Positions 19,701-24,499 of a stretch of DNA of 64,000 nucleotides are shown piece by piece. Origin of the DNA: Roseobacter cerasinus (lineage in GTDB: Bacteria; Pseudomonadota; Alphaproteobacteria; Rhodobacterales; Rhodobacteraceae); NCBI RefSeq assembly GCF_009811755.1, contig NZ_BLIV01000006.1, positions 1 through 64,000 of the forward strand. Direction: 5' to 3'. The notes under the pieces were generated by a model, which did no database searches, had not been told where the DNA came from, and saw only the letters and a program-made list of their open reading frames with translations. The number at the start of each line of letters is the position of its first letter. Position 1 is the first letter of the stretch. Both the position numbers and the translations under genes were made by a program.

Positions 19701-21902
19701 TCAGGCAGCTTTGGCGGTCTTACTGAATCGGCCGTAGAAGCTCTGCCCCTTCGCTGCCATCTCGCGCAACAACTTCGGGCAGGCAAAGCGGTCTCCAAAG
19801 GCGTCTGTCAGCTGGTCACAGCGCTCGGCGGCGTAAGGCGCGCCGATCATGTCGAGCCAGCTGAGCGGGCCGCCGGACCATGGTGCAAAGCCCCAGCCTA
19901 GGATCGCGCCCACATCCCCTTCACGGATGTCCATGAGCACGCCCTCTTCCAGCGCGCGCACCGCTTCCAGCGATTGCGCAAAGAGCAGGCGGTGCTGCAC
20001 ATCCGTCAGCTCCGGCTGATCGTCGGCCACGGGGTATTGGGCTGCCAGCCCCTCCCATAGCCCCTGGCGTTTGCCTTTTTCGTCGTAGGCATAGAACCCT
20101 GCAGAAGACTTCCGGCCCAACCGGCCTTCGCCTTCCATCCAGAAGATCACGTCATCCACGGCAGCGTCGGGATAGGCGTCACCCATGGCAGCCTTGGTGG
20201 CGCGGGCGATCTTGGCGCCGAGGTCGATCGAGGTCTCATCAACCAGTTGCAGCGGACCCAGCGGCATGCCGACCAGACGCGCCGCATTCTCGACCAGCGC
20301 AGGCTCAACCCCTTCGGCCACCATGCGGATGCCTTCGTTGATGTAAGGAATGATGCAGCGGTTGGCATAGAAGAAGCGGGCGTCGTTCACCACAATCGGT
20401 GTCTTGCGGATCTGGCGCACGTAGTCGAGCGCCTTGGCCACCGCGCGGTCGCCTGTACCCTTGCCCTTGATGATTTCCACCAGCAGCATCTTTTCCACGG
20501 GCGAGAAGAAGTGGATGCCGATGAACTGCTCAGGACGGCTTGACGCCTTGGCCAGCTCGGTGATCGGCAGGGTGGAGGTGTTGGAGGCAAAGATGCAATC
20601 CTCGGGGATCACCGCCTCGACCCTTTGCGTCATCTCGGCCTTGACCTTCGGGTCCTCAAAGACCGCTTCGATGATCAAGTCACAGCCCTTGAGTGCGTCG
20701 AGATCGCTGGTCGCCGTGATGAGGCTGAGAAGCTGCTCTTTCTTCTCCGGCGTGGTTTTCTTGCGCTGAATGCCTTTGTCGGCAAACTTGGCCGTATAGT
20801 CTTTGCCGCGGTCTGCCGCCTCCTGAGTCTGGTCGATCAGCACCACCTCGATGCCCGCCTGTGCGGAGACCAGTGCGATCCCCGCGCCCATCATACCGGC
20901 ACCGAGCACGCCCAGCTTTTTCACACGTTGATCGGCCACCTCCTGCGGGCGCACGGCCCCTTTCTCCAGCGCTTCCTTGTTGATGAAAAGCGATCGGATC
21001 ATCGCCTCCGACGAGGGGTTCATCAGAACGGAGGTGAACCAGCGCGCCTCGATCTTTAGCGCGGTGTCGAAAGGCACCAGCGCCCCTTCGTAAACTGCTG
21101 AAAGCAGCGCCTTGGCCGCCGGATAGACCCCTTGGGTCTTGCCGTTGACCATCGCCGAGGCGCCCACGAAGGTCATGAAACCCGCCGGGTGGTAAGGCGC
21201 GCCACCGGGCATCTTATAGCCCTTGGCGTCCCACGGCTTCACCAAATCAGCATCCTTGGCGCTCAGCACCCACGCGCGGGCGTCGGCCGTCGGATCGTCA
21301 GAAACCTCGTCGATCAGACCCGCGCCTTTCGCTTTCACCGGATCGACCAGCTTGCCCTCCAGCAGGAAGGGCGAGGCAGCCATGGCGCCCATCTTGCGCA
21401 CCAGCCGCGTGGTGCCGCCTGCACCGGGGAAGATGCCCACCATGATCTCGGGCAGGCCGATCTTGGCCCTGGGATTGTTGGCGGCAAAGATGCGATGACA
21501 GCTGAGCGGCAGCTCCAGCCCGATCCCAAGCGCCGTGCCGGGCAGGACGCAGGCAATCGGCTTGCCACCCTTCTGGGTCTTGGGATCCATCCCGGCCAGC
21601 TCGATCTTCCGCAGCAGGCGGTGCATGTCCATCACGCCCTCAAAGAGCCCCTTGGCCGGGGTCTCGCCCGCATCCGCCTTCATCTTGGCGATGAGGTTGA
21701 GGTCCATCCCACCCGCGAAAGAGCCCGCCTTGCCCGAGGTCAGGACGATGCCCTTCACCGCCTCATCGGCCAGCGCCTCATCTATCAGCGTATCGATCTG
21801 CGCAAGCCCCTCATAAGACATCACATTCATGGATTTGCCCGGTACATCCCAGGTGATCGTGGCAATGCCGTCGCTGTCGGTCTGACTTGTAAACTCGGTC
21901 AT
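19701..21902 (-). CDS. fadB: Fatty-acid oxidation complex alpha subunit (enoyl-CoA hydratase / 3-hydroxyacyl-CoA dehydrogenase)
   Basis: A 733-residue bifunctional enzyme for the second and third steps of beta-oxidation. The N-terminal crotonase part (about 1-190) shows LTSGKAGSFAGGMDL and GLPEIMVGIFPGAGGT; the dehydrogenase Rossmann motif GVLGAGMMGAGIA is near residue 335, with NTSTLPITELA and HFFSPVEKMLLVEII after it, and a complete C-terminal helical domain. It forms a trifunctional system with fadA, which lies upstream in the same direction. Its first codons duplicate a sequence 394 bp upstream, and its ATG overlaps the preceding small gene by ATGA. Confidence 0.93.
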   Translation of the reverse strand: MTEFTSQTDSDGIATITWDVPGKSMNVMSYEGLAQIDTLIDEALADEAVKGIVLTSGKAGSFAGGMDLNLIAKMKADAGETPAKGLFEGVMDMHRLLRKIELAGMDPKTQKGGKPIACVLPGTALGIGLELPLSCHRIFAANNPRAKIGLPEIMVGIFPGAGGTTRLVRKMGAMAASPFLLEGKLVDPVKAKGAGLIDEVSDDPTADARAWVLSAKDADLVKPWDAKGYKMPGGAPYHPAGFMTFVGASAMVNGKTQGVYPAAKALLSAVYEGALVPFDTALKIEARWFTSVLMNPSSEAMIRSLFINKEALEKGAVRPQEVADQRVKKLGVLGAGMMGAGIALVSAQAGIEVVLIDQTQEAADRGKDYTAKFADKGIQRKKTTPEKKEQLLSLITATSDLDALKGCDLIIEAVFEDPKVKAEMTQRVEAVIPEDCIFASNTSTLPITELAKASSRPEQFIGIHFFSPVEKMLLVEIIKGKGTGDRAVAKALDYVRQIRKTPIVVNDARFFYANRCIIPYINEGIRMVAEGVEPALVENAARLVGMPLGPLQLVDETSIDLGAKIARATKAAMGDAYPDAAVDDVIFWMEGEGRLGRKSSAGFYAYDEKGKRQGLWEGLAAQYPVADDQPELTDVQHRLLFAQSLEAVRALEEGVLMDIREGDVGAILGWGFAPWSGGPLSWLDMIGAPYAAERCDQLTDAFGDRFACPKLLREMAAKGQSFYGRFSKTAKAA
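21861..21902 (-). repeat. Direct repeat of the fadB 5' end, functional copy
   Basis: Codons 1-14 of the intact fadB gene. Compared with 22255-22296, the first 39 bases differ at five positions; four are synonymous third positions and one changes Ser2 to Thr. Homology stops abruptly at about codon 14. Confidence 0.85.
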
Positions 21903-22222
21903 TTTTCGTCTCCGGGAATTAGGCCCAATTCAATCAGCTTCTTTTCCATATTATCGTCGTGATTTTCTGGGTGAGGCCACGTATCGATGGTGCACCAAAG
22001 ATTGTCCAAAGTGCCTGGTCCGGGATGGCTGGCAATCGCGTCCCAATACTTGGCTTGAAATTTTGCAAAGTCGGATTCGCTGATGTTTGAGTTCTGCCAT
22101 GTCCCCGTACTCGAGCCACCTGGACCTGTACGAAAATCATAGTTGTCGGCAATGCCAGCTAGTTTGTTCCTGAGCGTCGAACCGCTGTCACCTGTGATAG
22201 AGACTCTGATGATTGCTCTCAT
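21899..22222 (-). CDS. Small protein of unknown function inserted at the start of fadB
   Basis: A 107-residue protein that I do not recognise. It opens with a beta-strand-like MRAIIRVSI, then a helix (STLRNKLAGI), a Gly/Ser-rich loop, a helix (SDFAKFQAKYWDAIA) and a strand LWCTIDTW, a pattern compatible with a small ferredoxin-like fold; this is inference. The start overlaps a 25-codon leader by ATGA, and its stop overlaps the fadB ATG in the same way. A hand count gives about 49% G+C over 21901-22260, clearly lower than fadB or fadA. It lies exactly between two copies of the fadB 5' end and appears to be acquired. Confidence 0.7.
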   Translation of the reverse strand: MRAIIRVSITGDSGSTLRNKLAGIADNYDFRTGPGGSSTGTWQNSNISESDFAKFQAKYWDAIASHPGPGTLDNLWCTIDTWPHPENHDDNMEKKLIELGLIPGDEK

Positions 22223-22296
22223 CGTGCCGATTCCCGTGATTGCTTAGCAAAGCTTGTGATGCCATCGCTATCGGTTTGACTTGTAAACTCGCTCAT
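22219..22296 (-). CDS. Chimeric 25-residue leader: fadB N-terminus remnant plus new tail
   Basis: The short frame reads MSEFTSQTDSDGIT, matching the fadB start, then an unrelated 11-residue tail SFAKQSRESAR and a stop. Its ATG overlaps the stop of the upstream NTF2-like gene (ATGA), and its stop overlaps the start of the 107-residue gene (ATGA). It keeps the ribosome site AAAGGACCCG, presumably the original fadB one. Whether the peptide itself does anything is unknown; translational relay is the simplest role. Confidence 0.6.
   Translation of the reverse strand: MSEFTSQTDSDGITSFAKQSRESAR
22255..22296 (-). repeat. Direct repeat of the fadB 5' end, remnant copy
   Basis: Counterpart of 21861-21902; it encodes MSEFTSQTDSDGIT and then diverges completely. 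It occupies the position where fadB would start if the 394-bp segment were absent. Confidence 0.85.
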
Positions 22297-23243
22297 GTGC
22301 GGGTCCTTTCTTGGATCGTTCTGAGGGTCACCAGAGCCGTCGACGGCTTGGGGACATTGTAGGGAAACCTGGTGTTGGACAGGGAATTCGTGACGGATTT
22401 CAGATACCAGGTGGTGCCCTGGCGTTTGAGTATCATACGGGATTTGATCGGGCCGAAGACGCTGACCTCTCCGTTGTAGAAGTCGGTGGCGTGGTAGCCG
22501 CAGATGAGATCGCTGGCGATGAACTCCGCCCGTTCCGCGCGCCGCTCCAGCCGGTCGGCGCCGCGATCCTGCATCTCCCGGCGCAGCATGTCGAAAAACG
22601 GGCGCACCTCGTTTGGCGCTGAAATGATCGTGTCGAGCGCTTCCGTGTGCGAGCTGTAGGGGAAGAGCAGACAGCTGCAATAGGCGTCAAAATCCTCCTC
22701 GGTGGTGGCCTCGGAGAGCTCGTCGATGAAGCTCTGATAGATGATCCGCGGGTCAACGGACTGGCGGCGCGCGTCGTTCTCAGGCGAGGCCAGCGCCTCG
22801 GGGCGCGCGCCATCACGGTGCACATGCGGAATGTGGATGGGCCAATGCGGGTTGTCGAGCATGCATTCCACTTCCAGCACCTTCCAAAGCCCCTCCTCGC
22901 GCAGAAGCACCATGCGGTTGGCGTAGCTGTCGACCACTGGCACCGCATTGTTCAGCGTGTGGGTCACGTGATGCCCGGTCATGTAGTTCTCGCTCATGAA
23001 TTCCGCGTCGGTGGCCAACCGTACCAGATGCGTGGCCCCGCGCCCCAGGAGGGCATCGCGGAAGGCCGTGAGGCCGATGATCAGGTCCTCGGCCGTCTCC
23101 ACGACGATCTCAGTGCTTTGGGTGCGTTGAAGATGCGGCAGTTTGATCCGCGCCTGCGCCACTTCCCAGTCGCCGTCCATCAGGGCGCGGGAGAGCACGT
23201 CCAGCGTTTCCTGATAGACGGTAAGGGCGGTGACGCCGGCCAT
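22293..23243 (-). CDS. Tandem NTF2-like (SnoaL-type) protein of unknown function
   Basis: A 316-residue cytoplasmic protein between fadA and fadB. Two similar halves can be seen: each has an early helical segment, a middle with ...ATHLVRLATDAEFMSENYMTGHH versus ADRLERRAERAEFIASDLICGYHATDF, and ends in a strand such as LLREEGLWKVLEVECML or ILKRQGTTWYLKSVTNSL. This suggests duplicated NTF2-like domains. It has no recognised activity; the position in the operon suggests a role in fatty-acid breakdown. It starts 6 bases past the fadA stop. Confidence 0.65.
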   Translation of the reverse strand: MAGVTALTVYQETLDVLSRALMDGDWEVAQARIKLPHLQRTQSTEIVVETAEDLIIGLTAFRDALLGRGATHLVRLATDAEFMSENYMTGHHVTHTLNNAVPVVDSYANRMVLLREEGLWKVLEVECMLDNPHWPIHIPHVHRDGARPEALASPENDARRQSVDPRIIYQSFIDELSEATTEEDFDAYCSCLLFPYSSHTEALDTIISAPNEVRPFFDMLRREMQDRGADRLERRAERAEFIASDLICGYHATDFYNGEVSVFGPIKSRMILKRQGTTWYLKSVTNSLSNTRFPYNVPKPSTALVTLRTIQERTRT

Positions 23244-23248
23244 GGCGC

Positions 23249-24460
23249 TTACACGCGCTCGATGATGGTGGCAGCCCCCATCCCGCTTGCGATGCAGAGC
23301 GTGGCGAGACCGGTTTCCTTATCCGCACGCTCCATCTCATCGAGCAGGGTGCCGATGATCATCGCGCCGGTGGCTCCAAGCGGGTGACCCATGGCGATAG
23401 AACCGCCGTTCACGTTGACCTTGCCGTGGTCTACATCGAAGGCCTGCATGAAGCGCAAGACGACCGAGGCAAAGGCCTCGTTGACTTCGAAGAGATCGAT
23501 GTCTTTTATCTCCATGCCGTTGTCGGCAAGAATCTTCTCGGTCACGGGCACAGGGCCTGTCAGCATGATCGTGGGGTCGGTTCCGATCTTGGCAGTGGCT
23601 TTGATGCGCGCGCGGGGTTTCAGCCCGTGCGTTTCACCGAACGCCTTCGAGCCGATCAGCAGGGCGGCTGCACCGTCCACGATGCCGCTCGAATTGCCTG
23701 CGTGGTGAATGTGGTTGATCTTCTCTAGGTGCGGGTACTTCATCAGCGCGACCTTGTCGAAGCCCGGCATGACCTCGCCCATGGCCTGAAAGGCAGGGTT
23801 CAAACCGCCCAAGGACTGCATGTCGGTCTGAGGCCGCATATATTCGTCATGATCAAGGATCGGCAGGCCGTTCTGGTCCGTGATCTCGATGACGGATTTG
23901 GCAAAGCGCTTCTCATCCCAGGCCTGTTTTGCCCGGCGCTGAGACTCAACGGCCAGTTGGTCCGCATCATCGCGGGTGAAGCCATATTCTGTCGCGATGA
24001 TGTCGGCGCTGATCCCCTGCGGCACAAAGTATTGCTCCATGGCAATCGACGGATCGACGGCAACCGCGGCCCCATCTGAGCCCATGGCCACGCGCCCCAT
24101 CATCTCGACACCACCCGCGATATAGCCGTCGCCCGCACCGCCGCGTACTTGGTTGGCCGCAAGGTTCACCGCCTCCATACCGGACGCACAGAAGCGGTTG
24201 ATCGCAAGGCCCGGGATGCGCTCATCAAGGTCTGAGGCCAGCACGGCGGAGCGTGCCAGGCAGCCGCCTTGTTCCATCACTTGTGTGACGTTGCCCCAGA
24301 TCACGTCCTCGACGGCATGGCCTTCCAGGTTGTTGCGCGCCTTCACGGCGTTCAGCGTCTGAGCCGACAGGCGCAGCGCGGTCACCTCATGCAAGGCGCC
24401 GTCCTTGCGACCCTTCCCGCGCGGGGTGCGCAGCGCGTCATAGATATAGGCTTCGGTCAT
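23249..24460 (-). CDS. fadA: Acetyl-CoA acyltransferase (3-ketoacyl-CoA thiolase)
   Basis: A 403-residue thiolase for the last step of beta-oxidation. The acyl-accepting cysteine is in RFCASGMEAVN near residue 90, and the C-terminal signatures NGGSIAMGHPLGATGAM and CIASGMGAA are complete. ATG at 24460 follows CAAGGAGAGACAA. It lies downstream of a GST gene (39-base gap) and upstream of the NTF2-like gene and fadB, which together form one minus-strand operon. Confidence 0.92.
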   Translation of the reverse strand: MTEAYIYDALRTPRGKGRKDGALHEVTALRLSAQTLNAVKARNNLEGHAVEDVIWGNVTQVMEQGGCLARSAVLASDLDERIPGLAINRFCASGMEAVNLAANQVRGGAGDGYIAGGVEMMGRVAMGSDGAAVAVDPSIAMEQYFVPQGISADIIATEYGFTRDDADQLAVESQRRAKQAWDEKRFAKSVIEITDQNGLPILDHDEYMRPQTDMQSLGGLNPAFQAMGEVMPGFDKVALMKYPHLEKINHIHHAGNSSGIVDGAAALLIGSKAFGETHGLKPRARIKATAKIGTDPTIMLTGPVPVTEKILADNGMEIKDIDLFEVNEAFASVVLRFMQAFDVDHGKVNVNGGSIAMGHPLGATGAMIIGTLLDEMERADKETGLATLCIASGMGAATIIERV

Positions 24461-24499
24461 TTGTCTCTCCTTGTCGCACAAGAGGCGCGGTTTTCCGGG

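Follow-up and report, generated by a model that had tools for sequence, protein, structure and literature searches.

The window is a 64,000-nucleotide stretch of the Roseobacter cerasinus genome (NCBI RefSeq assembly GCF_009811755.1, contig NZ_BLIV01000006.1, positions 1 to 64,000). It contains a fadB-type gene whose first 13 codons are present twice, with a small orphan gene inserted between the two copies. The features of the locus, from upstream to downstream on the minus strand, are the following:

23249..24460, minus strand: fadA-type gene, which we take to be a thiolase gene; upstream border of the variable slot (start set at the ATG of MTEAYIYDA, inside the open reading frame (ORF) 23249-24481)
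22293..23243, minus strand: NTF2-like gene, 316 aa (ORF); its stop overlaps the ATG of copy 1
22258..22296, minus strand: copy 1, a diverged remnant of fadB codons 1-13 (differs from the nearest congener at 6/38 positions and from copy 2 at 5/39)
22219..22296, minus strand: 25-codon leader ORF headed by copy 1 (from translation); its stop overlaps the cargo ATG
22223..22257, minus strand: linker between copy 1 and the cargo ATG (from the sequence)
21899..22222, minus strand: inserted orphan (cargo) gene, 107 aa, 49% G+C (ORF); its stop overlaps the fadB ATG (ATGA)
21864..21902, minus strand: copy 2, the native-like codons 1-13 at the head of the working fadB (differs from the nearest congener at 2/38 positions)
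19701..21902, minus strand: fadB-type gene, 733 aa, an enoyl-CoA hydratase / 3-hydroxyacyl-CoA dehydrogenase fusion (ORF and Pfam)

The fadB product matches the Pfam families 3HCDH_N, 3HCDH and ECH_1 above cut-off, and its best NCBIfam matches are FadJ/FadB models, below their equivalog cut-offs. The label 'NTF2-like' is the name given by the first-pass annotation; the 316-aa protein has no Pfam match above cut-off. It seemingly consists of two related halves: in several congeners, one half aligns to the region of the other with approximately 26-31% identity. The leader ORF (MSEFTSQTDSDGITSFAKQSRESAR) was absent from the first-pass annotation. With it, three consecutive ATGA overlaps join the NTF2-like gene to the leader, the leader to the cargo gene and the cargo gene to fadB, whose frame is intact after the insertion. 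ATGA overlaps are common in operons, and those on both sides of the insert could keep translation coupled.

The duplication of the first 13 fadB codons in the same orientation, 394 nt apart, had already been reported, together with a sharp stop of homology behind it, and both statements hold. The direct repeat (21865-21902 / 22259-22296) comprises 38 nt, 34 of which are identical; with one more base (21864-21902 / 22258-22296) it comprises 39 nt with five differences. These differences are ACC/AGC (Thr/Ser), CAG/CAA, GAC/GAT, GAC/GAT and ATT/ATC, thus the four silent changes and one replacement that had been claimed. Just upstream of the ATG, at which similarity sets in, the copies agree at only 3 of 15 bases; beyond codon 13, where it ceases, they agree at 11 of the following 38. 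A chance repeat is rejected: among 200 first-order Markov simulations of 21501-22700, none gave a 38-mer match better than 26/38, versus 34/38 observed. At spacings between 38 nt and just below 1500 nt, the window contains no second direct pair of at least 32/38. The low G+C content of the insert was likewise confirmed (49.4% over the 356 nt of 21903-22258), and GC3 is 0.52 in the cargo gene versus 0.80 in fadB and 0.82 in the NTF2-like gene.

fadB was found in 19/19 genomes of the genus, our own included. The other 18 congeners were ranked by fadB score and the 11 nearest were used for the junction alignment, the remaining seven being aligned apart. In 11/11 of these nearest congeners the NTF2-like gene directly overlaps a single fadB start, without insert. 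The alignment across relatives that had been proposed as a check thus bears out the insertion, and different genes occupy the junction elsewhere. The slot of the remaining seven congeners holds a distant NTF2-like gene in two, a cupin gene in two and no gene in three. Within its own genome the insert has only matches of 15-25 nt besides itself; the recipient thus has a single copy of it, and close relatives lack it. The linker has no match that covers it elsewhere in this genome, and a template for it there was rejected on this ground. Deletion between the two repeats would restore the empty site.

Distances over 38 nt indicate which copy is native. L036, the nearest congener, differs from copy 2 at two bases and from copy 1 at six, and the copies differ from each other at four. 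The two bases that separate copy 2 from L036 are also present in copy 1; T18 and C19, common to both copies, are found in 0/18 congeners, and the copies therefore group together. This apparent sisterhood rests on two bases, and by raw distance copy 2 would lie nearer to L036 (2/38) than to copy 1 (4/38). The two shared bases also disfavor an ancestral arrangement that was lost in the relatives. In blocks of 150 nt, identity to L036 stays at 0.83-0.92 throughout fadB and the NTF2-like gene and does not change abruptly across the junction; a fadB 5' end of mosaic origin, from a diverged donor, is not seen. In fadB codons 14-200, third positions differ from L036 at 45/179 conserved residues. Judged by its sequence, the working fadB start is of the resident type, because it differs from L036 at only 2/38 positions and identity does not drop at the fadB 5' end.

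The first-pass annotation had proposed that an incoming element brought its own recoded start and rebuilt fadB with it. This is not borne out, as the working copy is the native-like one (2/38, versus 6/38 for the upstream copy). The native-like working start and the bases shared by both copies mean that nothing shows an element-borne recoded start. Copy 1 carries four private changes, three of them at third positions, and the mostly silent pattern that had been taken as a sign of recoding is not significant (binomial P of approximately 0.11 for at least 3/4 third positions, calculated by hand). All three silent private changes replace the G/C of copy 2 and L036 by A/T, a pattern compatible both with drift of copy 1 and with the retention of some donor bases. 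Because T18 and C19 are shared, no distant donor of the start is visible; each copy must be resident or derive from a close relative.

The 107-aa cargo protein has no Pfam, NCBIfam or PADLOC match, and PHROGs gave only insignificant matches (E 0.22-0.34). The insert consequently encodes no recognizable recombinase in these four collections, contrary to the mobile-element reading, and its product matches no nuclease or transposase family. Matches to the cargo were found in 2/295 genomes of the family, 1/19 of the genus, 1/84 of the genus of G278, 2/398 of the phylum, 4/390 of the order and 1/337 of the class, these counts coming from overlapping draws, with the central genome counted wherever it was drawn. 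In the drawn genomes, the only credible relative besides the window's own gene is that of G278, a genome from another genus. It encodes 126 aa, with 30% identity over the full alignment and 33% locally, and it too has no Pfam or PADLOC match, even at E 10, as is the case for the 107-aa protein. The gene is located between fadA and fadB, 4 nt after the fadA stop, and its own stop overlaps the fadB ATG (ATGA), so that the only credible homolog occupies the same slot with the same ATGA junction. The G278 slot is AT-rich (G+C 0.45 versus 0.49 for the window insert) and shows no duplicated fadB start (at best 19/38, versus 18.9 on average and 21 at most in shuffles).

Weak profile matches in G636 (E 6.8e-4), G254 (0.0055) and G900 (0.0075, two stops) were dismissed as noise; the G636 match, the only one of the three viewed at its locus, falls inside a 342-aa ORF. 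A donor carrying the cargo at high identity was not found in the family, genus, G278-genus, phylum, order or class draws. No cargo relatives were detected in viral contigs and plasmids, nor in phages (window protein as query only). A scan of genome contigs based on the alignment of the two proteins returned 160 pattern matches, none of which was confirmed. The fixed-spacing motif scan, which is blind to relatives with other spacing, returned nine stretches (seven from Streptomyces, one from Rhizobium and one from Ruegeria) that were judged unrelated by translation. An AlphaFold2 single-sequence model of the 107-aa protein (pLDDT 53) predicts, at low confidence, the order strand-helix-strand-strand-helix-strand. 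Foldseek with this model gave no match at E 0.001; the best one, a PII protein at E 5.9e-3, is too weak for naming a function. A profile of the protein against solved structures gave one chain at E 1.2, which was not accepted as a match.

The slot between fadA and fadB was surveyed in 78 loci, namely the best 30 of 61 family-draw genomes, the 18 congeners and 30 loci of the G278 genus (the best 30 of 72 matching genomes among 84 searched). No gene is present in 36 loci (gap of at most 130 nt; at L077 and L080, which end at contig ends, the fadA-fadB gap was taken as 15 nt each). An NTF2-like gene is present in 19 (one also with the cargo, one also with a cupin gene), a cupin gene in 17, other or unassigned genes in four, a member of the 107-126-aa family in two and a member of a 93-99-aa family in two (L005 and L067). 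The NTF2-like and cupin labels derive from tblastn with the 316-aa window protein and one cupin (Pfam Cupin_2). L005 and L067 belong to two genera and their 93-99-aa proteins are 35% identical. Matches to this second family occur in 2/295 genomes, G055 (L005, in the slot) and G218, where the 94-aa member (L104:1465-1746, minus strand) has no fadB match in the fetched 3.2-kb stretch; slot genes are therefore not confined to the slot. Judged by the gene content of these loci, this family has a variable gene slot at the fadA-fadB junction. In a literature search on this slot in Roseobacter, none of the 10 papers listed out of 29 describes it in its title or abstract opening, and the statement extends to those alone. 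As a separate observation, L066 (G767, the nearest relative of G278 by fadB) carries a different, unassigned slot gene approximately 520 nt upstream of fadB, with an apparently signal-peptide-like start as read by eye.

A second copy of the start was searched in 49 loci (30 from the family draw of 61 genomes, our own included, the 18 congeners and, of the 30 loci of the G278 genus, that of G278 alone). It was present in 0/48 other loci, at odds with the expectation that other cargo genes would each come with a recoded fadB start. The next best matches to a locus' own start are 26/38 in L015, 74 nt upstream of the fadB start and close to where the cupin gene of the slot ends, and 24/38 in L023 (shuffle maximum 23 for both). 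A few other loci have a match one above their shuffle maximum. We read these matches as probable coincidence.

Our best reading, which we hold to be slightly on the probable side of even, is the one-sided homologous import of the cargo gene together with a fadB start, leaving a remnant start behind. The incoming fragment would have carried a small foreign gene with a fadB start immediately behind it, as in a fadA-cargo-fadB operon of another family member. It would have recombined at the resident fadB start; homology would exist on the fadB side alone, so that integration would be one-sided, either by a single crossover or by homologous pairing at one end combined with end-joining at the opposite end (homology-facilitated illegitimate recombination, HFIR). 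The outcome would be the cargo gene with one full fadB start downstream and 13 fadB codons upstream as a remnant. We infer the donor, the crossover and the order of events. An incoming cargo gene with a fadB start is the simplest account because the cargo overlaps fadB at the very ATG with which the repeat begins. The cargo-fadB junction of G278 indicates that such a junction exists elsewhere and could supply the homology on the fadB side; since ATGA overlaps are so frequent, this shared border is supportive rather than decisive. Import is further supported by the empty site in the 11 nearest congeners, by the AT-richness of the insert in both genomes and by the unbroken similarity of fadB and the NTF2-like gene to the nearest congener. 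The right border is the fadB start, and the left border, any microhomology included, is unreadable without a donor. If 38 nt was all the homology there was, it is little for ordinary recombination, which counts against import. So do the failure of the draws to yield a high-identity donor and the two bases that the copies share.

Several observations can also be explained without an imported start. The cargo, from anywhere, may have been joined into fadB during repair by template switching or end-joining, with 38-39 nt of the resident start copied twice and copy 1 drifting thereafter, since it no longer starts fadB. We consider such an in-situ insertion with target duplication unlikely, though deserving of weight. 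The two bases shared by both copies and absent from 18 congeners fit it, as do the otherwise complete identity of copy 2 to the nearest congener over 38 nt and the confinement of private changes to copy 1; given the third-position divergence of fadB from that congener, four changes in 38 also fit neutral drift on the branch. However, it gives no reason for a right border placed precisely at the ATG, with a stop/start overlap, nor for the location of the only credible homolog at the identical border in another genus. In a further account, selection rather than mobility is at work: the slot would be a permissive operon position where small genes useful in beta-oxidation are exchanged via the flanking fadA and fadB by ordinary homologous recombination, the repeat being an accident of one exchange. 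The 78 loci, which are empty or carry four or more kinds of genes between them, agree with this account, as does the presence of the second small family in the slot of two genera. Against it, the G218 member of that family has no fadB in the fetched stretch, so that slot genes are not tied to the pathway, and usefulness in beta-oxidation is conjecture; we regard this account as improbable.

The view of the first-pass annotation, a site-specific one-gene mobile element (small homing or integrase-assisted) that targets and regenerates the fadB start, draws on two proteins of approximately 33% identity at one site in two genera, with no other credible member in the searched genomes. Against it stand the lack of a recombinase or nuclease family match, the count of 0/48 other tested loci with a duplicated start, G278 among them, and the native-like rebuilt start, which makes it rather more doubtful still. 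Its insertion part stands, whereas the recoded start, the repeats at other loci and the recombinase find no support. In an extension of this view, minimal one-gene elements would form a family with the fadB start as their address, where a circle of approximately 394 nt (cargo plus 13 fadB codons) would integrate by recombination; this seems to us the least probable. If it were true, fadB would be regenerated, the ATGA coupling kept, and gain and loss between the repeats would both be harmless. Compared with these alternatives, the locus looks like a one-off DNA import and not like a new kind of mobile element.

Known systems resemble the locus in part. As in an integrative element that restores its target, direct target repeats flank the insert (34/38); an integrase or recombinase of its own is lacking, the 107-aa ORF being the only one, and the one homolog, in G278, is without the repeat. 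A transposon or IS with target-site duplication does not fit, with no transposase family and five differences in the 39-nt repeat. Integron gene cassettes consist of a single small AT-rich ORF of approximately 400 nt, a description that the insert shares, but no attC is found 3' of the ORF by inspection, and there is no room for one because the cargo stop overlaps the fadB ATG. An SXT/R391 ICE supplies a new prfC start. These ICEs resemble the locus in inserting at a gene 5' end, that of prfC (PMC4344509), but are large, integrase-bearing conjugative elements, whereas the insert comprises 356 nt without a recognizable integrase. In E. coli, integration by single crossover with a partly duplicated homologous locus is reported for 56/60 Lac- clones by PCR, with duplications of 109-950 bp in the 14 sequenced clones, which are ascribed there to single crossing-over of a circular molecule and not to HFIR proper (PMC3240628). 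These integrants share with our locus foreign DNA beside a homologous stretch and a partly duplicated homologous locus; here only 38-39 nt, at a gene start, are duplicated. HFIR has been proposed for added T6SS immunity genes in Vibrio cholerae (PMC5361080), where small genes are likewise added one-sidedly into an operon position and older genes are left in place, but the remnant here is a 13-codon gene start, without a known effector-immunity relation.

The locus is thus a readable fossil of a foreign gene joining a core metabolic operon without breaking it, within a start-codon overlap and at the price of a 13-codon scar. It also flags the fadA-fadB junction as a slot in this family where unrelated small genes, some without a known family, come and go.
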